Below, one piece after another: positions 531-57,880 of a stretch of DNA of 58,984 nucleotides (its first letter is position 1; every line of letters begins with the position of its first letter). Made by a program: the position numbers and the translations under genes. The stretch is taken from contig NZ_SCFA01000059.1 of the NCBI RefSeq assembly GCF_004210275.1, positions 1 through 58,984 on the forward strand. Reading direction: 5' to 3'. A model generated the notes under the pieces. It was not told where the DNA came from and did no database searches. It saw only the letters and a list, made by a program, of their open reading frames with translations. Source of the stretch: Rickettsiales endosymbiont of Peranema trichophorum. GTDB lineage: Bacteria > Pseudomonadota > Alphaproteobacteria > Rickettsiales > Midichloriaceae.

Positions 531-658
531 ATACCAAATTTCAGATTGAATCAGGCAAATGGATTTGAGGATAAAGCTGCGTAAGCGTGTTGAAATACCT
601 GCGCAGAGCCGAGTTTCACAAAATCCGTTTTGAATCATTTAAAAATGAGAATTGGTAT
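531..658 (+). repeat. Palindromic element C, copy 1 (C1)
   Basis: A 128-bp element with inverted ends ATACCAA...TTGGTAT and an imperfect internal palindrome around CTGCG...CGCAG. Full copies are at 37775-37903 and, inverted, at 42476-42606; a partial copy is at about 8063. The plus strand has an open frame reading LRRAEFHKIRFESFKN. Size, palindromic core and open frame resemble rickettsial palindromic elements (RPE), but identity with a named RPE family is not established. Confidence 0.75.
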
Positions 659-7939: not shown

Positions 7940-8062
7940 GAATTCTGTCGAAAAAGGAGCGGAAATGGCAAAGGAAGATACCGGAATGGCAAAGGAGTGG
8001 GTGTCTGGAGTGGTAGAGTGTTCGCAAAGGCAAATGGATGCCAGAATGGCAAAGGAGGAAGC
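7940..8062 (+). repeat. Repeat D block (D2)
   Basis: Array of degenerate GGAATGGCAAAGGA units (GGAAATGGCAAAGGAAG, CCGGAATGGCAAAGGAG, CCAGAATGGCAAAGGAGG). The open frame read across it (7934-8125) is a repeat artefact. Confidence 0.6.
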
Positions 8063-8132
8063 GGGAGCGTATTGAAATACCTGTCCAGAACCGAGCTCCG
8101 AAAAGTCCGTTTTGAATCATTTTAAAATGGCA
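8063..8132 (+). repeat. Palindromic element C, partial copy (C2)
   Basis: Carries the right half of element C (GTATTGAAATACCTG, then CCGTTTTGAATCATTT) but lacks the left inverted end and has a diverged right end. It is joined directly to the D2 mini-repeats, so it is a decayed or recombinant copy. It lies just before the lpxD promoter. Confidence 0.6.
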
Positions 8133-8181
8133 GTATTAATTACCTTCAAAACTTCCTATTTCACATACCATAAAACATACG

Positions 8182-27544: not shown

Positions 27545-27562
27545 AAGGTTAACAGTAAATTA

Positions 27563-27655
27563 AGAGCCTGTCCGCAAATTAGTTGGAATGAAAAGAATCT
27601 ATGCAAAAGTTATCTGTTAAGTTGTTGTCAAATGCAAATGGATTTGAGGATGATG
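27563..27655 (+). repeat. Repeat A, copy 2 (A2), fused to a fragment of element C
   Basis: AGAGCCTGTCCGCAAATTAG and AAAAGAATCTATGCAAAAGT match repeat A up to about 27630. Instead of the hairpin, the sequence then continues GCAAATGGATTTGAGGATGA, which is internal to element C. This is a recombinant junction between the two families. The copy lies immediately downstream of tRNA-Ser. Confidence 0.65.
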
Positions 27656-36497: not shown

Positions 36498-37775
36498 ATG
36501 GTAAGCGGTGTAGACATAGAGCAGTTTTGTCTGAACCTTGACTTGCTTCTCGACTCTCAGAATGTAAAACGTGTTGGTCTTTCAGTTTCTGGGGGAATAG
36601 ACAGCATGTGCTTGTGTCATTTGTCGCAATTTTGGTCTGCAAGAAAAGGAATAGATCTAACGTGCTTAGTTGTAGATCACAAACTACGGCAGGAATCCTC
36701 AGTGGAGGCAGAATATGTAGTATCGATCTTGGAATCGTATGGGCTAAGGGCGAAAATACTTCCGATCTTCTGGAATAAGCCTTTAAGCAATATACAGAAG
36801 GCTGCCAGGGAAGCTAGATATGACCTACTAACAAAATACTGTCAAGAGAATGGATTGGAATATCTGTTTACAGGTCATAATAAGGACGATCAGGCAGAAA
36901 CAGTTCTCATGAGAATATCTCGAGGAAGTGGTGTGAACGGAGCAATAGGTATTCCAACACAAACTATACTAAACGGTATTAAGATTATAAGGCCTCTATT
37001 ACCGTTTCATAGACATCAGATATGTTACACAATATCCAAAGCTGGATGGAGCTGGGTTGAAGACAAGTCAAACCAAAATCAACTATTTGAAAGAGTAAAA
37101 ATACGAACTTTATTTAGTCAACTTTCAAATAAAGAGCTTTGGATCAACAGGCTCGCACTGTTTGCCGACAATATGAATCGGGTCAGAACATTTATCGATC
37201 AAGAGGTAGACTCCTGTTTCTATAGAATGTGTAACATAAATATCTATGGTTTTATCTTTTGTGAGCATTTAGATTTTTGTGCCTTGCATGAAGAAATAGC
37301 TCTTAAACTTCTCTCCAAAATTATCAACAAATTTAACGGAGGAAAGGAAGTTTGTAGGCTTGCTAGTTTATTGCACCTATATAAAAACATTAAAGCTCAA
37401 CAAATACTTCATAAAACACTTGGAGGGGTTGAAATAGTAAAGAAAAAAGACAAAATACTGTTTTATCGAGAATTAAGAAGTGTGGAAAGTTCAAAACACA
37501 TTTTACCAAACGCAGAGATCACCTGGGATAACAGGTTTGTTATTGAACTAGAGACCCCTCTTACATTGAAAGTAACAGCTCTAGGTAAAAATGGGCAGAA
37601 TCTTCTGAGGACTGATTTTGATCACCAAGGTGTTGAACCTCCAAATAGCTTAGTTCTGTCGACTACCCCTGGAATATTTGACACGAACGGAAATCTAGTC
37701 TGCTATCCGCACCTTGGGATCACAAAAGCCGATGTGAAAATCAAATCGTTCAGGTGTTTGTGGACCAACGAGTAG
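36498..37775 (+). CDS. tilS: tRNA(Ile)-lysidine synthase TilS
   Basis: Converts C34 of tRNA-Ile(CAU) to lysidine, changing its codon reading to AUA; essential. The 425-residue protein has the PP-loop SGGIDS at 31-36, VVDHKLRQESSVEAEYV, and LFTGHNKDDQAETVLMRISRGSG. The C-terminal domain is less conserved. Its stop codon (37773-37775) abuts the left end of element C3, so the last residues may have been altered by that insertion. Confidence 0.94.
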   Translation: MVSGVDIEQFCLNLDLLLDSQNVKRVGLSVSGGIDSMCLCHLSQFWSARKGIDLTCLVVDHKLRQESSVEAEYVVSILESYGLRAKILPIFWNKPLSNIQKAAREARYDLLTKYCQENGLEYLFTGHNKDDQAETVLMRISRGSGVNGAIGIPTQTILNGIKIIRPLLPFHRHQICYTISKAGWSWVEDKSNQNQLFERVKIRTLFSQLSNKELWINRLALFADNMNRVRTFIDQEVDSCFYRMCNINIYGFIFCEHLDFCALHEEIALKLLSKIINKFNGGKEVCRLASLLHLYKNIKAQQILHKTLGGVEIVKKKDKILFYRELRSVESSKHILPNAEITWDNRFVIELETPLTLKVTALGKNGQNLLRTDFDHQGVEPPNSLVLSTTPGIFDTNGNLVCYPHLGITKADVKIKSFRCLWTNE

Positions 37776-37903
37776 TACCAAGTTTCAGATTAAATCAGGC
37801 AAATGGATTTGAGGATGAGGCTGCGTAAGCGTATTGAAATACCTGCGCAGAGCCGAGTTTCACAAAACCCGTTTTGAATCATTTAAAAATAAGAATCGGT
37901 ATA
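37775..37903 (+). repeat. Palindromic element C, copy 3 (C3)
   Basis: About 129 bp, from GTACCAAGTTTCAGATTAAA to AGAATCGGTAT, with the same internal CTGCG...CGCAG palindrome and LRRAEFHK-coding frame as C1. It starts at the tilS stop codon. A 65-codon frame (37834-38031) runs through it and is probably not a gene. Confidence 0.75.
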
Positions 37904-39366: not shown

Positions 39367-41553
39367 TTGATACTTTACAATCATATTTACTGCAAGTTCC
39401 ATTCTTGTCTTCTAAAAGAGGAAGCAAACCTGTTGTCATGGCTCCCGTATTTTTTCAGCCTTGGAATTCTCACGTACTTCTCTTTTTCAAGAGAGCCTGA
39501 TGTCTATGTAACTGGACTGGCCTCACTTGTGATTTGTGGAGCTCTTATATTTCTTAGGAAGCGGGGTAGATTCTTGAAGTTATGGATGTGCGTATGTTTC
39601 TATTTTCTTGGTTTCTGTGTAACGCAGCTTCACACATATGCTATCAACCATCAAGCTTTGGAAAAAGAAATACCGGAAATGCTGATAACTGGCGATGTGT
39701 TTGACATTCAACATATGGAGGGAAAAAGGCGGTTGGTCATTAGAAACATTCAAGAAGTATTACCCATAAATGATGGAAGAGGAAAAACATCGAATTGGTC
39801 CAGTGCTTTAGATCATTCAAGGGAAGAGTCGGTAGAGGATGTCAGGCGGCTTAAAGGTATCAGAATAAACGTTAAAGAAGAGTTGTTTCATGATCAGCAT
39901 ATCGATCATGAAAGGCTTAGTATAGGTGATACCGTGTCCATACCATCTCGTCTATTTCCGTTACCACACATATTAGTACCAAATGGGTTCGATTTCAGGA
40001 GATACGCCTATTTTAAAGGAATTGGGGCGGTAGGTTATGCAACTGGAGCGCCAACAATTCTAGCAAGGTATGAGAAGCAATTCATAGATCGTGTTTTTGA
40101 CTTTCCAAACATGAGGAACACGATCATAGAAAAAATGAAATTGCACTTAAAACAGCCGGCGACTGGAATAGCTACTGGTATTTTGGTAGGGGATGTGGGT
40201 TTAGTTCCAAAAGATACGATCGAAGTGGTAAGGGACGCGGGTATAGCACATCTATTAGCAATATCCGGTATGCACATGATCGTGCTGGTAGGAATATTAT
40301 TTTTTACTGCACGGTATTGTGTTTTAAAAATCGAATATATTGCTCTTAGAATAGATTCAAAAAAAATTGCAGCAATTGTTGCGCTTCTTGGTAGTGCTTT
40401 TTATTTGAAGTTAAGTTTGAGTCCTATATCAGCACAACGGGCATTCATTATGTCAAGTATTGCACTAATAGCAATCATTTTGGGGCGTGAATCTTCGGCG
40501 GTTCGTGCAATGTCTATATCTGCTATTTTGATTTTATTAATGGCCCCACAAGAGCTGTTAAATCCAAGTTTACAAATGTCATTTGCGGCTTCCTTTGCAT
40601 TGATAGTGTCATTAAGTAAACTGAGTACGTTATTTTTGACATCTATACAAATTGTTAAAGCCTCAAGAATGTCAAAGCTACTGGCTTATTTTGGGACAAT
40701 ATGTCTGGCATCCATTATTGCAAGTCTAGCTACAGCCCCATTTGTCATATACCACTTTCATAATGTATCAGTGTATGGTGCGTTGACAAATCTTGTTGCT
40801 ATTCCAATAAATGACTTTTGGATAATGCCATGGGGTATTGTGTCACTATTGCTGATGCCGTTTGGTTATGAGAAGTTTCCAGTAGTTGCTATGGGAACTG
40901 GTGTGGATTTGATTTATATGGTAGCGAAATATGTGTCAAACATTCCTTATGCGTCGTTGGCTATAGCTCCTCCTTCAGGACTGGGTTTAGTGCTAACAGC
41001 ATACGGGATGTTTGGATATTTTATAGCTGCTAGCAATATTCGCTACTTATTCCTGATGCTAATGCTGTGTGGACCATTTTTGAAATCTCCGTATGATCGA
41101 CCAGATATTTTGATTGAGCCGTCTAGTAAATTATTTGCAATTAGAGATAATGATGGACTAATTATCTCATCAAACAAAAAGAGCAAGTACGTGCTGGATG
41201 TTTGGAGTGAAGCCTATGGTAACAATGTAAGGCTGCTAAACGATATGAACATCTCTGGATGTAATGCAGACGCATGTATGTACGGTAGAGATGGACAAAA
41301 TGTTTTAATTATAGGAAATAAAAATGTGAAACTGGTGAATTGTCATAATATAGGGTTGTTGATCAACCTGACATCGAGTAGTGTTTATTGCAACAATGTA
41401 AAAAAAATTAATAATACTATCTTGAAATCTGGAGGAGCACATTTTATAAAAATTAACGGTGGTAAAATTAATGTTACCAATTCAATGAATATAGGGGGTA
41501 AAAGAATTTGGAATAGATTATACAGTCGAAAAGATGGAGATATGGGTTACTGA
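39367..41553 (+). CDS. comEC: ComEC/Rec2-family DNA uptake membrane protein
   Basis: 728-residue polytopic protein of the ComEC family, which forms the inner-membrane channel for DNA entry in competence. I keep the TTG start at 39367 because a good AGAGGT site (39357-39362) is placed just before it and no upstream ATG is available. An N-terminal membrane region leads to a soluble OB-like part (about 90-220, DUF4131), then the Competence domain with ISGMHMIVLVGILFF and SPISAQRAFIMSSIALIAI. The C-terminus (from about 580) lacks the HxHxDH metallo-hydrolase motif of full ComEC, as in other Rickettsiales. No other competence gene is nearby. Confidence 0.9.
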   Translation: MILYNHIYCKFHSCLLKEEANLLSWLPYFFSLGILTYFSFSREPDVYVTGLASLVICGALIFLRKRGRFLKLWMCVCFYFLGFCVTQLHTYAINHQALEKEIPEMLITGDVFDIQHMEGKRRLVIRNIQEVLPINDGRGKTSNWSSALDHSREESVEDVRRLKGIRINVKEELFHDQHIDHERLSIGDTVSIPSRLFPLPHILVPNGFDFRRYAYFKGIGAVGYATGAPTILARYEKQFIDRVFDFPNMRNTIIEKMKLHLKQPATGIATGILVGDVGLVPKDTIEVVRDAGIAHLLAISGMHMIVLVGILFFTARYCVLKIEYIALRIDSKKIAAIVALLGSAFYLKLSLSPISAQRAFIMSSIALIAIILGRESSAVRAMSISAILILLMAPQELLNPSLQMSFAASFALIVSLSKLSTLFLTSIQIVKASRMSKLLAYFGTICLASIIASLATAPFVIYHFHNVSVYGALTNLVAIPINDFWIMPWGIVSLLLMPFGYEKFPVVAMGTGVDLIYMVAKYVSNIPYASLAIAPPSGLGLVLTAYGMFGYFIAASNIRYLFLMLMLCGPFLKSPYDRPDILIEPSSKLFAIRDNDGLIISSNKKSKYVLDVWSEAYGNNVRLLNDMNISGCNADACMYGRDGQNVLIIGNKNVKLVNCHNIGLLINLTSSSVYCNNVKKINNTILKSGGAHFIKINGGKINVTNSMNIGGKRIWNRLYSRKDGDMGY

Positions 41554-41649
41554 GGGTAAGTTTGTGGTGGAGACGTTGGCGCATCCGTTTTCAAATCAAT
41601 ACTATAAAACGGTGCGGTGTAATAATAGTTAAAGTAATAGGGGTTAAAA

Positions 41650-42243
41650 ATGCAAGGGAACTGTACACATAAATTGTCTAATGCTTCTTCGGAGCAGAAC
41701 GTAGGGGAGCTTATTTTGTCTCTTCGTCGTTTTCTGGAGGTGATACTTCGAGAGGTCCAACGTGCTGGATTTTTTTCGCATGAGTTTCTTGAGAAGTCTA
41801 TATTGTTTGTACTTAGTACAACACCAAAGATCTCCACATCTGAGTTTCACACTATTCTGAATATACTAGAGGAGGTGGAGCAGGACTTTCAGAACGCGGA
41901 GTTTTACGAGGCACTTACCTCTATGAGACGTATTTGTGTAGACGAGGATGCTCTCTTTCAATTAAGAGGTTTGCCTATAATTCAAAAGGAGCAAATTAAC
42001 TTGATACCATTACTTGCTTGTTATCTGGTGGATCAAGTACTGCGATACATGGATGAGATAAAACGAAAAATAGTACACCATCATCTCGACATTGAAGCTA
42101 CAAGAAGGTTGGTATTAGAGTATTTTGATGTATGTGCAGCGCAGACCATTAGAGTGCCGACTTCTAGCACAGTTGGGACACAAAACACCAAGTCACGTTC
42201 CAAATCATCCAAAAAAGCAAGAGCAAAAGGGGCAGATAAATGA
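41650..42243 (+). CDS. Protein of unknown function with basic Ser/Lys tail
   Basis: 197 residues, ATG preceded by AGGGG (about 41639-41643). Predicted mostly helical and soluble: SLRRFLEVILREVQRAGFF, TILNILEEVEQDFQ, ACYLVDQVLRYMDEIKRKIV. The last 25 residues are a disordered basic tail rich in Ser/Lys (KSRSKSSKKARAKG), which could bind nucleic acid. No signal peptide or membrane segment. I do not recognise the family. It follows comEC by about 100 bp and is followed by repeat E and A fragments. Confidence 0.75.
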   Translation: MQGNCTHKLSNASSEQNVGELILSLRRFLEVILREVQRAGFFSHEFLEKSILFVLSTTPKISTSEFHTILNILEEVEQDFQNAEFYEALTSMRRICVDEDALFQLRGLPIIQKEQINLIPLLACYLVDQVLRYMDEIKRKIVHHHLDIEATRRLVLEYFDVCAAQTIRVPTSSTVGTQNTKSRSKSSKKARAKGADK

Positions 42244-42249
42244 AGAGGT

Positions 42250-42268
42250 GTTGCTTAGCTCCTGAAAT
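42250..42268 (+). repeat. Short repeat E, second copy
   Basis: GTTGCTTAGCTCCTGA is identical to 7917-7932. Here it follows the stop of the 197-residue unknown gene by 6 bases. Confidence 0.5.
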
Positions 42269-42326
42269 CCTGTGATTCCATTATTATGTCAGCTTTTTTG
42301 CGTGATTATTTCCGAAATTTAGCATT

Positions 42327-42352
42327 AGAGCATGTCCGCAAATTAATTGGAA
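42327..42352 (+). repeat. Repeat A, truncated copy (A3)
   Basis: AGAGCATGTCCGCAAATTAA then TTGGAA, identical to the start of A1, but cut at 42353 where an end of the TA-flanked MITE (family B) begins. Only the first 26 bases remain. Confidence 0.7.
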
Positions 42353-42378
42353 TAGACCTCTTGCATAACTCATAAATA
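42353..42378 (+). repeat. Solo end of MITE B (B1)
   Basis: TAGACCTCTTGCATAACTCA, equal to the consensus inverted end of the 150-bp element at 45425-45574, without the second end. It interrupts repeat A3, so B-type insertion was later than A3. Confidence 0.65.
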
Positions 42379-42389
42379 TTCTCGCTGTT

Positions 42390-42460
42390 GCGGGAATGGC
42401 AAAAGGGAGGAGAGGTAGTGACAAAAAGGAAGATGCAGGAATGCAAAGAAGGGGAGCCTG
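42390..42460 (+). repeat. Repeat D block (D3)
   Basis: GGGAATGGCAAAAGGGAGG and related units, then GATGCAGGAATGCAAAGAAG. Joined to the flanking motif GTTGTCTCTA that also precedes element C1. Confidence 0.5.
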
Positions 42461-42475
42461 GGATGGTTGTCTCTA

Positions 42476-42606
42476 ATACCAAATCTCATTTTTAAATGAT
42501 TCAAAACGGATTTTGTGAAACTCGGCTTTGCGCACGTATTGCAGCAATACGCTTACGCAGCCCCATCTTCAAATCCATTTGCCTGATTTAATCTGAAATT
42601 TGGTAT
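42476..42606 (-). repeat. Palindromic element C, inverted copy (C4)
   Basis: 131 bp, reverse orientation relative to C1 and C3: ATACCAAATCTCATTTTTAA on the left and CTGAAATTTGGTAT on the right. The internal palindrome contains GTATTGCAGCAATAC, perfect in this copy. It covers the last codons and stop of the zinc-ribbon gene 42588-43307. Confidence 0.75.
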
Positions 42607-43307
42607 AACTTGATAAGTTTTGAGATTGTTATCGGTCTTCTATCAATAAAATTGATTCCTGTGGCAGTGTTCATGACAGCCGTAATGGATAGTGATGAAG
42701 TGTTTGATGGAATGTCAGGCACCTTCAATTTGACTATATTATGACCTGTCAAAACCGTTTGTTGATTAACGAACATGTCTGCCAAAACGTCACCATTATT
42801 GTCAAATGCAACTACATCAAACCCACTGAGCATAGTTTGTAACCTATCCTTCTTGAGTATGGTTATTGTTGTATGAAACTCAATGTTATTGCCAAGATTC
42901 TTGATGGTAACTTGACTGTTTTGTTTTTCCAACAACAAGGTATGGTTAATTTGATGACCCATTGCATCTCCTAGCTTATTGATAGATGGGAACAGTACTG
43001 CTGTTTCGTACCTATAAAAGAAAAGGACGGTACCGACGAAGAATATAGTGGAGGCAAGTAGTATTGCTCTTATAAAGTGACGAGTATTGTTACTACATTC
43101 CTTGTTTGTATAGACAATGGATTTAGTGTCTCCTTGATCCTCCTGATGACTTTTTCTGCTAACAAGATCGGACAATGTGAACGCTTCCTCAACTGTTGCT
43201 ACCCACTCGTAACCACACTGCGAGCAACGTACAAATCTTCCATATTGGCCGATGTCGTCCATCGTGATCTTAAAATCGGTATTACAGTTTGTACATGTTA
43301 TGATCAT
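42588..43307 (-). CDS. Zinc-ribbon (MJ0042-type) membrane protein, C-terminus replaced by element C4
   Basis: 239 residues. An N-terminal zinc ribbon has C5/C8 and C28/C31 (TCTNC, RCSQCGYEW), typical of the MJ0042 zinc-finger domain found at the start of many alphaproteobacterial proteins. One transmembrane segment lies at about 83-102, followed by a periplasmic domain with IKNLGNNIEFHTTITIL and LKVPDIPSNTSSLSITAVM, resembling the DUF3426-type arrangement. The last residues YQISD and the stop codon are encoded by the end of element C4, so the native C-terminus was probably changed. Function unknown. Confidence 0.82.
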   Translation of the reverse strand: MIITCTNCNTDFKITMDDIGQYGRFVRCSQCGYEWVATVEEAFTLSDLVSRKSHQEDQGDTKSIVYTNKECSNNTRHFIRAILLASTIFFVGTVLFFYRYETAVLFPSINKLGDAMGHQINHTLLLEKQNSQVTIKNLGNNIEFHTTITILKKDRLQTMLSGFDVVAFDNNGDVLADMFVNQQTVLTGHNIVKLKVPDIPSNTSSLSITAVMNTATGINFIDRRPITISKLIKLYQISD

Positions 43308-43422
43308 ATTATCACCGCTTGCTTTAGTTTAGCTATTGGGCTAGTGTATTGCCGAACTTGGTTACTGCACAGCAAAAAGCAAATGCTAACCTAAATAACA
43401 TACGTTATCTATATAGGTGAAA

Positions 43423-44256
43423 ATGAACAATTTAGCCAGAGAAATTGACGCGTTATGGAATAATTCAGACGTAGGTGACAGAACTAACTTGAAGCCGTCT
43501 GTGCTAGAGGAGAGAATGGCCCTTATTCAAAAAGTGCTTGATGCGCTCGATGGTGGTGAGATAAGGGTAGCGGAGAAGAAAGATGGCAAGTGGCATGTAC
43601 ATCAGTGGATCAAAAAAGCGATTTTGTTGTCATTTAGGTACAGTGACAACAAGGTTATTAATCCCACAAGCGACCTTAGATTTTACGACAAGATACCTCT
43701 GAAGACTATGTGTTATAATCGGGAAGCTTTTGAATCTGGGGGTTTTAGAATGGTGCCAGGAACAGTTGTGAGATATTCAGCATACATTGCCAAAAACGTA
43801 GTCCTCACCCCTTCTTTTATCAATGTAGGTGCTTATATCGACGAAGGAACTATGATAGATACATGGGTGACGGTTGGAAGTTGTGCGCAAATCGGCAAGA
43901 ACTGCCATATTTCAGAAGGTGCAGGCATAGGTGGGGTACTTGAACCATTACAGGGGAATCCAGTTATTATAGAAGATAACGTCTTTATAGGTATGAAAAG
44001 TGCTGTAACGGAAGGTGTTATAGTAGAGGAGGGCGCCGTAATATCTGCAGGTGTATTTATAACCAGTTCAACGCGTATTTATGATCGTGAGAGCGATCAA
44101 ATAATATATGGTAAAATACCGTCATGTTCGGTGGTGGTACCGGGCTCTCTACCTAGTTCTGATGGTAAAACCCACACATCTGCCGCAATTATTGTAAAAA
44201 AAGTAGACAATAAAACGAGAGCTAGTACATCAATTAACGAAATATTAAGGCACTGA
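43423..44256 (+). CDS. dapD: Tetrahydrodipicolinate N-succinyltransferase
   Basis: Succinylates tetrahydrodipicolinate in the succinylase branch of diaminopimelate synthesis. Start at ATG 43423, with AGGTG 4-8 bases before it; the GTG at 43417 overlaps that site. 277 residues: helical N-terminus, then a left-handed beta helix of hexapeptide repeats ([38 protein letters not shown]), the DapD signature. It is followed by dapE after 13 bp. Confidence 0.96.
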
Positions 44257-44269
44257 GGTGGATGGAGAG

Positions 44270-45421
44270 ATGAATGATATACTAGAGCTGTTACAAAGGC
44301 TACTGAGGTGCCAAAGTGTTGCTCCTAATGATGATGGAGCTATAGACATTGTTGCCTCGAAGTTAAGCGAATTAGGATTTGATTGTAAAATTCTGACTTT
44401 TGAGGGTGATGGCTCGTATCCGGTGAGGAATCTGTATGCGCGCTATGGTACTGTGGGTCCTAATTTCTGTTTTGCGGGACATACAGATGTGGTGCCAACT
44501 GGTCCAGTTGATAAGTGGCAATTTCCACCATTTGATGGAAGTATCAAAGATGGACTAGTCTATGGGAGGGGCACAGTTGACATGAAAGGCGCTATAGCGG
44601 CAATGATTTTTGCTGTCGCTAATTTCATAAGATCGCAAAAGTTCAATGGTAGCATTAGCTTTCTAATAACAGGTGACGAAGAAGCGGATGCTACTAATGG
44701 AACTCCAAAGGTGTTGAAGTATTTAGAACATAAAGGCGAGAAATTAGACATTTGTATCATAGGAGAACCAACAAACCCAGATACTTTAGGAAGGACAGTG
44801 AAAATAGGCAGCAGGGGTAGCTTTAACGTGGATATTACGGTACGTGGAAAGCAAGGACATGTTGCATATAATAAGTATGCTGATAACGCATTGACTAGAT
44901 TGACAAATGTGCTACACGATTTGAATGAAATCACATTGGATCGGGGCAATGAGGACTTTGAGCCTTCCAATTTAGAGCTCACAAGTATCGATGTGAACAA
45001 TAAGGCTCCTAATGTTATTCCAGGGTTAGCTTCTGCTCACATCAACGTCAGGTTCAATACGTGCTATGATGGTCCCAAGCTCTTTGAAGTGATCAAAAGT
45101 GTATGCGAGAAGCACGCTTGTGATCAATATCATATCGCATCAAGAGTATCCGGTGAAGCTTTTGTGGTCAAAGACAAAGGAATACTTGATATTTGTGCGA
45201 TTGCTATTAAAAACGCACTGAAGAGCGATTGCACCTTTAATACCAGGGGAGGTACGTCGGATGCTAGGTTTATTAAAAACTACTGTCCTGTTGTTGAGTA
45301 TGGGCTAAGCAATGTGACAGCGCATCAGGTTGATGAACACACTACGATTCAGGAGCTTGTGAACCTCATGAATGTGTATTACGCAATGCTTCAAACCTAC
45401 TTCGAGGTTGGCAATCTTTGA
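44270..45421 (+). CDS. dapE: Succinyl-diaminopimelate desuccinylase
   Basis: Zinc-dependent hydrolase releasing LL-diaminopimelate. Start at ATG 44270 (MNDILELLQRLL), with GGAG just upstream. Metal motifs are FAGHTDVVPTG, YGRGTVDMKGAIAAM, TGDEEADATNGT and the C-terminal HQVDEHTTIQEL, all of the M20/DapE family. 383 aa, full length. Its stop (45419-45421) is only one base from the TA that borders MITE B2. Confidence 0.95.
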   Translation: MNDILELLQRLLRCQSVAPNDDGAIDIVASKLSELGFDCKILTFEGDGSYPVRNLYARYGTVGPNFCFAGHTDVVPTGPVDKWQFPPFDGSIKDGLVYGRGTVDMKGAIAAMIFAVANFIRSQKFNGSISFLITGDEEADATNGTPKVLKYLEHKGEKLDICIIGEPTNPDTLGRTVKIGSRGSFNVDITVRGKQGHVAYNKYADNALTRLTNVLHDLNEITLDRGNEDFEPSNLELTSIDVNNKAPNVIPGLASAHINVRFNTCYDGPKLFEVIKSVCEKHACDQYHIASRVSGEAFVVKDKGILDICAIAIKNALKSDCTFNTRGGTSDARFIKNYCPVVEYGLSNVTAHQVDEHTTIQELVNLMNVYYAMLQTYFEVGNL

Positions 45422-45424
45422 TTA

Positions 45425-45574
45425 GACCTCTTGCCTAACTCATTCTGAGTGGTTATTTCGTCGTCTTTGTCGTCAAAATTTGTCTGCGCTCCTCACATAT
45501 ATAGGATATGCTGCGGTGCTCACCTGCGTTTTTCCTAAAAATTCCTCACTCATTTATGAGTTATGCAAGAGGTC
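45425..45574. mobile_element. 150-bp MITE with 19-bp inverted ends flanked by TA (B2)
   Basis: Left end GACCTCTTGCCTAACTCAT and right end ATGAGTTATGCAAGAGGTC are inverted repeats with one mismatch in 19. TA dinucleotides flank it at 45423-45424 and 45575-45576, consistent with a TA target-site duplication of IS630/mariner type. The interior (TCGTCGTCTTTGTCGTCAAA and more) has no ORF. It fills the gap between the convergent dapE and aas-like stops and, if transcribed, forms a strong hairpin. A single end occurs at 42353. Confidence 0.8.
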
Positions 45575-45577
45575 TAT

Positions 45578-48500
45578 TTAAGAGTTTTCGAGAGGAGAGA
45601 GGATTTCCAGAAGTGCAGGGTAATCGGTTTTACCAGTGCTAAGCATAGGCAGCTCCTGTATGTGATGGAGAGATTTGGGCACAAACAGTTCGGAATACCC
45701 AGATTGTATCAGATACTGTGTGATATCCTCCTTTGTAGCCGCAGTATGTGTAGTAAATAATATAATGCTTTCTCCCTTTTTTGGATCATTTACAACAACT
45801 GCTGCGTTTCTGGATTCAGGCCACAACTTTGATACCATCTCTTCAATGACGCTTAAAGGAATCATCTCACCGCCGACCTTTGCAAAGCGTTTGATTCGAC
45901 CGACTATGGTGATATAACCCTCAGCATCAACATCGACGATATCTCCAGTATCGTACCAACCGCTGACCATTTTGCTTCCGATTTTATACTTTGGCTTTTC
46001 TATGACGTTAGGGTTGTCATATCTAATGTATCCAAGCATTACATTTGGTCCCGACACTATTAACTTGCCGCCTTCTTTGATTCCTTCTATAGGTTCAACG
46101 ATGTATTTCATACCAGGCAATATTCTGCCAACAGTACCTATTTTAGAATGCATACCTGTGTTCAGGGCGATCGCTGGAGAGGTTTCGGTTGTACCGTACC
46201 CTTCTAGTATCCTGATACCAAATTTTTCCATCCACATTTTTGTGGTTTCTGGTTTTAATTTCTCTGCTCCAGCGAACACGTATCGTATACTAAAGAAATC
46301 GTATGGAAGTGCATACTTTGCGTAATTTGCAAGAAATGTATCAGTTGCAAAGAAGCAAGTTGCATTAATTCCATAGATCAGTTCTGGTATGATTCTGTAG
46401 TGGAGTGGGGAGTGATAGAGGTATGTTTTCACTCCTGAGAAAATAGGCAATATCATACCGCCTGTCAGTCCAAATGCATGAAAGATGGGTAATGCGTTGA
46501 ACAGCTTATCAGATGATGTGAAGTCTATTCTGGATGCAAGCTGCTTGAGGTTGGAGAGAATATTGGAATGGCTTAATACCACGCCCTTTGGTCTTCCCTC
46601 GGAACCTGATGTGAATGCTAGTAAGGCCTGTTCATCTGGGGACGGTCTTTCCATTTTTTTGTCGTCGTAGTACTTATGGTAGTAGCGTGTAGGGAAAATC
46701 GCTTTCCACATTGCACTGCACTTCTCAATCAATGATATAGAACTACGGATATCTTCTAGGTAAATTAGTTCTATGCCACTTTTTTCTATGCTGTTGACAA
46801 CGTTTTCAAGCCCTCCCTTTTCAACGAAGACCCTGGAGGTATATATTTTGGTTATCTTTCCGACAGTACAGGATGCCAATATATTAGACGTACCGGTCGA
46901 GAAGTTGAGCATTGCAGGTATTCTATCGCGCACCAGTACACCAAAGAAGAGGCTCACTGTTGCAACAACATTTGGTAACATGATACCAATGCGTTCTCGA
47001 TGTTCTGTGGATTTTGCAATCCTATCTCCCAAGAGGAATGCCCCAACCATGAGTTTATAGTAACTCATGGAATTTTTATTTGCGTCATGTATGATAACGG
47101 TCCTTCTACCAAACTGCTTATATGCTTCGGTGAGTGACTCAAAGAGGGTGACGGTATTTTTACTACCAGCAAACATCATCTCTGACATAATGTCATACAA
47201 CATGTTGCCGACTGCATGACGTCTTTCCCTGTTTGTGAGATGTGCCGGTACTCTCAGTTTTTGTGGCTCCTGAATGTGAATCACAATTTTAGGAAACAGC
47301 TTAAGCTTTAGTTTACCGTGCATTTTGGAGAATAGGCTGTACTGGGTACCATCGATTCGAATTGGTAAGAGTGTGGCATTGGCCTTATCGGCTATGAGTC
47401 CAGGACCCTCGTATACCTTCATTAAAGAGCCAGTGACTGTAATTCTACCTTCTGGGAATATCACGACAGGTCTTTCAGCTTTTAACTGGTCTATCAATGT
47501 TTTTGCAGCCATAGGATTGGTAGGGTCTACTGGATAAGCTCTTAGGAATGTCAGGAATGGTCGCAACCACCACTTTCTTGCTATGTAAGTGTCAATTGCG
47601 AAGGTAAATCTTCCTGGCAATAGAATACCTATCAGGAGTGGATCTAAAAACGATGCGTGGTTTGCTATTACCAATATTCTTTTGCCGGCTTTGTGGTAAT
47701 TTTCAAGTCCTATGACTTCGACCCTATATATCAACTTCAGCACGATTTCCAACAAGCTTTTGACCATTTTATCTGGTAGAATTCTGCAGATGTATGTTGC
47801 GGTAAAGAAGTTTGCGACCGCAAGTACAAACAACAGCTGTGAGGCCGATAGACCTATTGTCACAAGGCACATACTGATCAAGCTTGCCACAACCATGAAA
47901 CCGGAGCTAACGATATTGTTTGCTGCTATCGCTTGTGATCGTCGTGCTATGTCCATCGATGTTTGTAAAATTGCGTAGAGTGGTACAACGTATATACCGC
48001 TACACACACTGATAAAGAATATGTCGATACAAGCTCTTACACCTTCGGACGTTGAAAGGAAGTAGTGAATACCCCCAAGGTACTCTCTTTTGAGAGTCAA
48101 GGTGCTAACCCACCAGAGATCTAAAAAGAAGCAGCTTAGGATCATCATGGAGGCAGGTACATATTTTTCCGACACTTGGCTATGTAGCAATCTGTCGCAT
48201 AGCACGGAACCAACCCCCATTCCTATGGAAAATAGACTTAAAAGCAGAATGAATACGGATTGGTCGCCACTGAACACCTCTTTGGTGAGACCTTGGACCT
48301 GTGAAATGAACAGGCCTCCGATCAGCCAGAACCATGAGATCCCCAAGACTGAAAGAAAGGCTCTGTGATTGGTTCGCAAGGTTTCGACGCAGTCTAAGGT
48401 TTCTTTGACGATGTTCCAGCGAATTTCGGTTTTTGGAGCACAAATCTTGCTATCGACGATAAACAATGATGATATATATCCTATTAGGCCCATTGCGATC

Positions 48501-49250: not shown

Positions 49251-49465
49251 GGGGATGACGCAGGAAGGGAGCGACACAGGGGGATGCCGGAATGGCAAAG
49301 GAGGAGGATGGAAGTGGCGAGGGAGGAGGACTAAAATGGCAAAGGAAGATGCCGGAGCGGCAAAGGAAGAGTTGCGGGGATGACGCAGGAAGGGAGGGAC
49401 ACAGGGGGATGCCGGAATGGCAAAGGAGGAGGACAGAAGTGGCAAAGAAGAGAGAGTGGCGTTGG
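49251..49465 (+). repeat. Repeat D block (D4), longest
   Basis: Contains a direct duplication: GGGATGACGCAGGAAGGGAG followed by ACACAGGGGGATGCCGGAAT occurs at about 49253 and again at about 49377. Interspersed units follow GGCAAAGGAGGA. The ~124-bp tandem period marks a recent local duplication. Confidence 0.65.
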
Positions 49466-57601: not shown

Positions 57602-57626
57602 TAGTACATGCTCAACATAGGAACTT

Positions 57627-57735
57627 AGAGTATGCCCGCAAATTAATTGGAATGAAAAGAATTCGGGCAAAAGTTGTATGTTAAGTTGTTGGGAAAGGTA
57701 GATGGATGGACGGTTTCACGGTCATGACGCAGGAG
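57627..57735 (+). repeat. Repeat A, copy 5 (A5)
   Basis: AGAGTATGCCCGCAAATTAA then TTGGAATGAAAAGAATTCGG, closest to A1; it ends in a weakened hairpin region ATGGACGGTTTCACGGTCAT followed by GACGCAGGAGGG. It starts about 25 bases after the secretin-like stop codon. Confidence 0.7.
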
Positions 57736-57880
57736 GGAGCGGCAATGACAAAAGGGGAGACGAGAGTGGCAAAGGAAGAGTTGCGTGGAGTGACAAAAGA
57801 GCGGAGCGGCAATGACAAAGTGGGATGTCGGAATCCCAAAGGAGGGGCGCGGGAGCGATACAGGAAGAACGCCTACTGAA
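57736..57880 (+). repeat. Repeat D block (D5)
   Basis: Units such as GAGAGTGGCAAAGGAAG and GAGCGGCAATGACAAA, ending GGGAGCGATACAGGAAG. Follows A5 directly, the A-then-D order seen also at 241-475 and 49149-49465. Confidence 0.6.

Follow-up and report, generated by a model that had tools for sequence, protein, structure and literature searches.

The locus

The window, by which we mean the whole stretch of 58,984 nucleotides analysed here, carries a gene for a zinc-ribbon membrane protein whose 3' end coincides with one end of a short palindromic repeat. The features of this locus, and the further copies of the repeat within the window, are the following.

42588 to 43307, minus strand: gene, divergent from dapD, for a zinc-ribbon membrane protein of 239 aa (Zn_ribbon_4, E 8.9e-9)
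42477 to 42605, plus strand: palindromic MITE-like element, core TACCAAAT...ATTTGGTA, 129 nt (family consensus 126 nt; 3 extra loop bases)
42588 to 42605, minus strand: element-encoded gene end, TAC CAA ATT TCA GAT TAA, that is Y Q I S D and stop
42474 to 42476, plus strand: left target duplication, TAA
42606 to 42608, plus strand: right target duplication, TAA, read as TTA (Leu) in the minus-strand gene
42444 to 42473, plus strand: repeat DNA of family D7 on the far side of the element, also found at 499-528; not gene remains
37776 to 37901, minus strand: further copy, abutting the TAG stop of tilS (36498-37775, plus strand)
532 to 657, minus strand: further full copy, intergenic; part of its flank is common to the 42477 copy
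8028 to 8139, minus strand: degenerate copy, 75% identity

The zinc-ribbon protein has the C-terminus ..ISKLIKLYQISD*. On the gene strand the junction reads ATC AAG TTA | TAC CAA ATT TCA GAT TAA and from TAC onward this is repeat DNA, so that the last five codons of the gene, plus its stop codon, are repeat-derived. A previous sequence-only reading of this DNA had identified YQISD and the stop as an inverted repeat end, and we find the same: the last six codons (42605-42588) match. The coordinates it gave for the repeat, 42476-42606, were correct to within a base, the mobile core being 42477-42605 with TAA on each side.

An assembly artefact that joined repeat DNA to a truncated gene would look similar, and the genome is in 125 contigs, several of them starting or stopping inside copies of the element. 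The 42477 copy, however, lies inside a contig of 59 kb, between matching TAA duplications, and carries a 3-nt loop insertion without counterpart in the other 39 aligned copies. Further, the same kind of end is found in recO and in the zapE gene of another genome (see below). We therefore regard an artefact as very improbable.

A repeat family with the behaviour of a MITE

A search of the element's own genome gave 74 candidates, of which 40 were scored; all 40 (query included) matched, with 88-100% identity and, apart from the query, E values of 7e-54 to 2e-42. The stretches of the genome that we examined contain no fewer than 59 copies or fragments. With up to 2 mismatches allowed, the end motif TACCAAATNTCANNTTNAA was counted 58+55 times and its reversed control 1+7 times. 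The aligned copies have a core of 126 nt, a long imperfect palindrome running from TACCAA to TTGGTA, and the element consensus contains two to four stops in each of the six frames. Contigs C29, C39, C6 and C3 of this genome (L032, L035, L075 and L136) start or stop within element copies, so the copy number is a minimum.

Both ends are present in 45 copies, and the count of target sites uses the 43 that also have both flanks. TNA stands immediately outside both ends in 33 of these 43 and is missing on at least one side in 10. The middle base of the flanking TNA pair is identical in 20 of the 33 (shuffle mean 8.6; reached in 0 of 20,000 shuffles) and different in 13. The presence of TNA on both sides, together with the agreement of the middle base, amounts to a 3-bp target duplication, and on this evidence the repeat behaves as a non-autonomous palindromic MITE of about 126 nt. 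It is short (126-129 nt, below 200 bp), non-coding and present in many copies, it has terminal inverted repeats (TACCAA/TTGGTA) and a target-site duplication, and a relative with an empty site exists, since the zapE gene is filled in genome G017 and empty in G021. The repeat had been called mobile from the window alone, a view that the copies in the genome and their TNA duplications bear out.

Two copies in the window lie in opposite orientation next to the same left flank: 499-550 and 42444-42495 are 83% identical over 52 nt, element end included. This common flank makes an exchange of flanks, or repeated insertion into the same repeat, possible.

Other repeats occur nearby. Another repeat end, GAGCnTGTCCGCAAATTA when up to 3 mismatches are allowed, occurs in the window at 239-267, 27561-27589, 42325-42353 and 57625-57653; in the 455-kb sample described below TNA precedes it at 19 of 21 places, and at 2 of 21 it abuts a stop codon. 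It resembles the end of an IS1031 member given in the part of PMC12016507 available to us. A third repeat end, AGACCTCTTGCATAACTCAT, lies at 42351-42377 (the IS-end repeat beyond the element), 45417-45443 and 45552-45578; at 11 of 11 places AAT or ATT stands before it, which suggests a different, A-N-T target. G-rich degenerate intergenic repeats (AATGGCAAAGGAGGA..., family D3) are present at 49270-49461, 57744-57856 and 7964-8009, and D3-like DNA adjoins several copies of the element.

Candidate mobilising transposases and matches elsewhere

The IS1031 group of the IS5 family inserts at 5'-TNA-3' with a 3-bp repeat, according to the portion of PMC12016507 that we could consult, and both the target and the 3-bp duplication are those of the element. 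The ends differ: ISLrh, the one published IS1031 member compared, ends GAACCTGTC... (same partial source), unlike the TACCAA of the element. By target only, then, the mobilising transposase may be IS5/IS1031-like. None of the 8 DDE_Tnp_1 loci of the genome has an element end on each side; end-like sites or element copies are found within 4 of the 8. A candidate autonomous element at L072 and L073 was rejected, as it consists of short stubs of the element joined to a different repeat, and this repeat is present at 8 other places without an element end.

A search of plasmids gave no element match, and viral contigs gave neither an exact match to the 20-nt core nor a relative of the zinc-ribbon protein. 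The single match among genome contigs, from a Peptostreptococcaceae MAG, aligns over 22 nt and was taken as chance.

Homologues of the zinc-ribbon protein

To the sequence-only reading the protein's original C-terminus had been swapped for residues of the repeat, and remains of the old end might lie beyond 42476. Besides the genome itself, homologues were found in 32 of 52 relatives, all 52 from other genera, and 29 were translated; in 11 of these 29 loci the homologue adjoins dapD. The first claim is partly supported: YQISD ends none of the 29 homologues, but with relatives from other genera only, the loss of a native tail from this gene is something that we infer. No remains of an old C-terminus lie beyond 42476, where we find repeat and IS-end sequence instead. 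The tails of the homologues vary freely (..KTFVPLK in L002, ..EKLIKINTSSN in L012), and the homologue in L002, once aligned with the protein of the window, stops no more than about one residue away from its end, so the net change here was probably of a few unconserved residues. When the element is removed on paper the open frame continues for 55 codons through other repeat DNA, and the flank may therefore have been rearranged. The change at the zinc-ribbon gene is ordinary in kind and mild in effect.

Replacement of the ZapE tail in a sister genus

Homologous elements were detected in G016, G017 and G021, which represent two further genera of the family and bring the total to three genera; among the 19 remaining genomes of the family there was no element match, save one of 21 nt in G018 in one search. 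In G017 the last 11 codons and the stop of zapE (ZapE model, E 9e-100) are element, entered at CTA: ..EYL|YQVPFLTYPNA*. G021, of the same genus, has no element at this place and its protein ends ..KYLNIA*, with 97% identity over 351 residues. The order in G017 is ..EYL, element, a second short palindrome and then TAGCATAATTCAGATT, which matches ATAGCATAATTCAGAT of G021, and the TAGCATAATTCAGAT of G021 is still present past the insert; the AATA bases that follow CTA were not found in G017 beyond the insert. The second palindrome (about 50 nt, in L161, where it separates the element from the old zapE tail) has similar ends, TACCAATT...AATTGGTG, and because of this second insert the duplication at the junction is not clean. 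The pair of genomes shows that the native tail NIA of ZapE in G017 was replaced by 11 element-coded residues, with most of the DNA of the old end remaining.

The same pair also has a copy in common, 5-6 nt after the stop of what we take, from its sequence, to be a murG-like gene (L169 1501-1628 in one member of the pair, L172 1501-1627 in the other). It lies at the same place in both and appears to be an older, shared insertion. In the genome of the window (G000) no ZapE homologue was found; all the other 7 genomes searched, G017 included, gave matches, that of G016 being short and with an internal stop.

Position of the copies relative to genes

Genes were called with a purpose-written caller based on codon usage. 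For an unbiased sample we combined the window with 20 stretches, each no longer than 20 kb, chosen regardless of the element (455 kb, about a third of the genome), having trimmed the overlaps of L147 and L149 with neighbouring stretches before counting. Of the 29 copies in this sample, 19 are intergenic, 6 lie immediately at a stop codon and 4 extend over the 3' end of a gene (1 of them on a broken side). Copies are biased towards gene 3' ends. Counting both sides, the facing gene end is a 3' end in 39 of 55 cases against 46% for intergenic TNA sites (p 1.5e-4), and a called gene is overlapped by only 4 of the 29 copies, each time at its 3' end, although about 79% of the TNA sites in the sample (27,843 of 35,401) are inside called genes.

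These numbers could reflect survivorship alone, that is, indiscriminate insertion at TNA followed by purging of the insertions that fall in coding sequence or promoters. Such an account shares the MITE reading with ours and differs in the cause of the bias: few copies would touch genes though most TNA sites are genic, and the 3' bias would fit a loss of promoter insertions. None of the 59 copies or fragments has a called gene running across it, but this is no proof of purging, since the six-frame stops of the consensus would break any such gene call.

Where a copy has interrupted a gene, that gene appears instead with an element-coded tail; insertions in the first 50 or so codons are missed. 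Such tails at an intact element end are found at 4 of the 59 copies or fragments; two fragments, the L050 copy at 2372 and L078, were excluded from this class as their broken side lies over the gene end. The four are the zinc-ribbon gene, recO (L082), a PAP2-family gene (L067) and an IS110 transposase fragment (L031). RecO ends ..ARL|YQTSD*, in the same frame as the zinc-ribbon tail (L|YQISD*), and its best-scoring relative, from G005, ends one residue past the junction; with the L|YQVPFLTYPNA* of ZapE in G017 these make up the tails entered at TTA or CTA. L067 and L031 have tails read in the remaining two frames, and L031, which matches 173 of 343 model positions, looks truly interrupted.

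Coincidence with stop codons

All four TNA triplets are stop codons on one strand or the other (TAA and TGA directly, TTA and TCA on the reverse). In a loose count the trinucleotide flanking the element is the stop codon of a gene at 12 of the 59 copies or fragments. Stricter counts leave out L083, a spurious repeat-derived ORF, and the tilS copy, where the stop is TAG and not TNA (10 of 57, p 1.2e-5 against 3.2% expected), and additionally L061, where the element end is degenerate (9 of 56, p 7e-5, or p 2.5e-4 at the window's own rate of 3.8%). The 455-kb sample alone gives 6 of 29 (p 2.7e-4), and 5 of 29 once the TAG case is left out (p 0.002). There is thus an excess of copies exactly on stop codons, several times the expectation.

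Several of the proteins whose stop is abutted in this way reach the end of their family models (DnaK 624/625, GlnA-like 469/469, Alr 364/369, FdxA 103/104, RbbA-like permease 905/909 and, from L061, MtaB 412/416), so the element lies on native stops.

Purging alone has difficulty with one aspect of these data. Within 60 nt of a 3' end, stops make up 17% of TNA sites, yet 12 of the 23 insertions there fall on them (p 1.2e-4). The strictest count gives 9 of 20 (p 0.003), and such an excess is hard to obtain from purging alone. We give survivorship as the sole cause of the bias somewhat less than an even chance.

The possibility of a selected hairpin

REP/BIME sequences are thought to act as mRNA stabilisers or terminators. 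The elements might similarly be hairpin 3' ends kept by selection for one of these roles, with the overlap of the C-terminus as a by-product. The bias of copies towards 3' ends agrees with this, as does the strong predicted fold of the gene-strand RNA of the 42477 element (-47.5 kcal/mol, z -6.5), and 8 of 36 predicted pairs are changed on both sides between genera. Only 2 of the 10 rows of that alignment come from outside the genome, however, and covariation contributes +0.29 kcal/mol to the consensus fold, which is no net support, so the paired changes are weak. Palindromy is also expected from the MITE's own transposition. Moreover, Rfam at gathering scores gave no match in 41500-43500, a terminator scan placed no site in the element (its single site is inside the gene, at 42700-42722), and 11 of the 29 copies of the 455-kb sample have no called gene within 100 nt on either side. 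We consider it unlikely that selection for a hairpin explains the elements.

A model for the gene ends

The reading that we favour, and hold to be highly probable, is that a MITE which inserts at TNA and duplicates it supplies the end of the zinc-ribbon gene, the other copies following the same rule. The target of the element at 42477 would have been an in-frame TTA (Leu) close to the 3' end of the gene; translation would pass from this TTA into the terminal repeat, add YQISD and halt at a TAA 18 nt in, leaving a near-neutral tail of five residues on a poorly conserved C-terminus. More generally, three outcomes would be expected. Where the stop codon serves as the TNA target (TAA or TGA), the duplication copies the stop, and such an insertion would leave the protein intact. 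Where an in-frame TTA just before the stop is hit, the gene would gain an element-coded tail, L-Y-Q.., ending within the terminal repeat. Insertions deeper inside genes would truncate the product and mostly be lost. The purging from gene interiors, like the neutrality of the surviving insertions, is what we infer from the positions of the copies.

More tentatively, and with doubts that outweigh our confidence, we suggest that the TNA target may make native TAA and TGA stops preferred harmless landing sites, at which the stop is duplicated, the protein stays unchanged and the gene gains a 3' hairpin, new tails being written by off-target landings on TTA just before the stop. In searches of openly licensed papers we found no earlier report of TNA insertion coinciding with stop codons, and this coincidence is the part of the pattern most worth following. 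Insertion of this kind would offer a mobile repeat a route to become abundant in a small, gene-dense genome while doing little harm. It would also let C-termini change by a few residues at a time, and the G017/G021 pair shows one such change with the old end mostly readable.

Comparison with known systems

The sequence-only reading had likened the element to the RPEs of Rickettsia. These are palindromic repeats of 105-146 bp found, like the present element, both within and between genes, and they carry an open frame that is fused inside proteins (PMC2229807, as far as the part available to us describes them). The analogy is a weak one, as the present element ends its protein and its consensus is stopped in six frames; an RPE-like insertion read through in frame was rejected on this ground, and none of the called genes reads through a copy.

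MITEAba12 is a 113-bp MITE with stops in six frames. One copy forms the 3' end and the stop of a gene, so that six-frame stops and an element-coded gene end are common to both systems. It differs in having the ends of ISAba12 and a 9-bp target duplication, and its protein is 398 aa shorter, the gene being called a pseudogene (PMC6382973, in the sections accessible to us).

In pneumococcus, BOX elements encode the stop codon of 36 annotated CDS, for example folE and dnaJ, with no strong evidence of truncation in the passages of PMC3049150 at our disposal. BOX elements differ in being modular (boxA/B/C), and in those passages the account of their 3' ends does not include a coincidence of stop codons with TNA. 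The likeness, which concerns described behaviour only, is that of short repeats at the extreme 3' ends of genes that supply the stop, and in this BOX is the closer precedent than RPE. Taken together, BOX, MITEAba12 and RPE make a repeat that supplies a C-terminus something already known.
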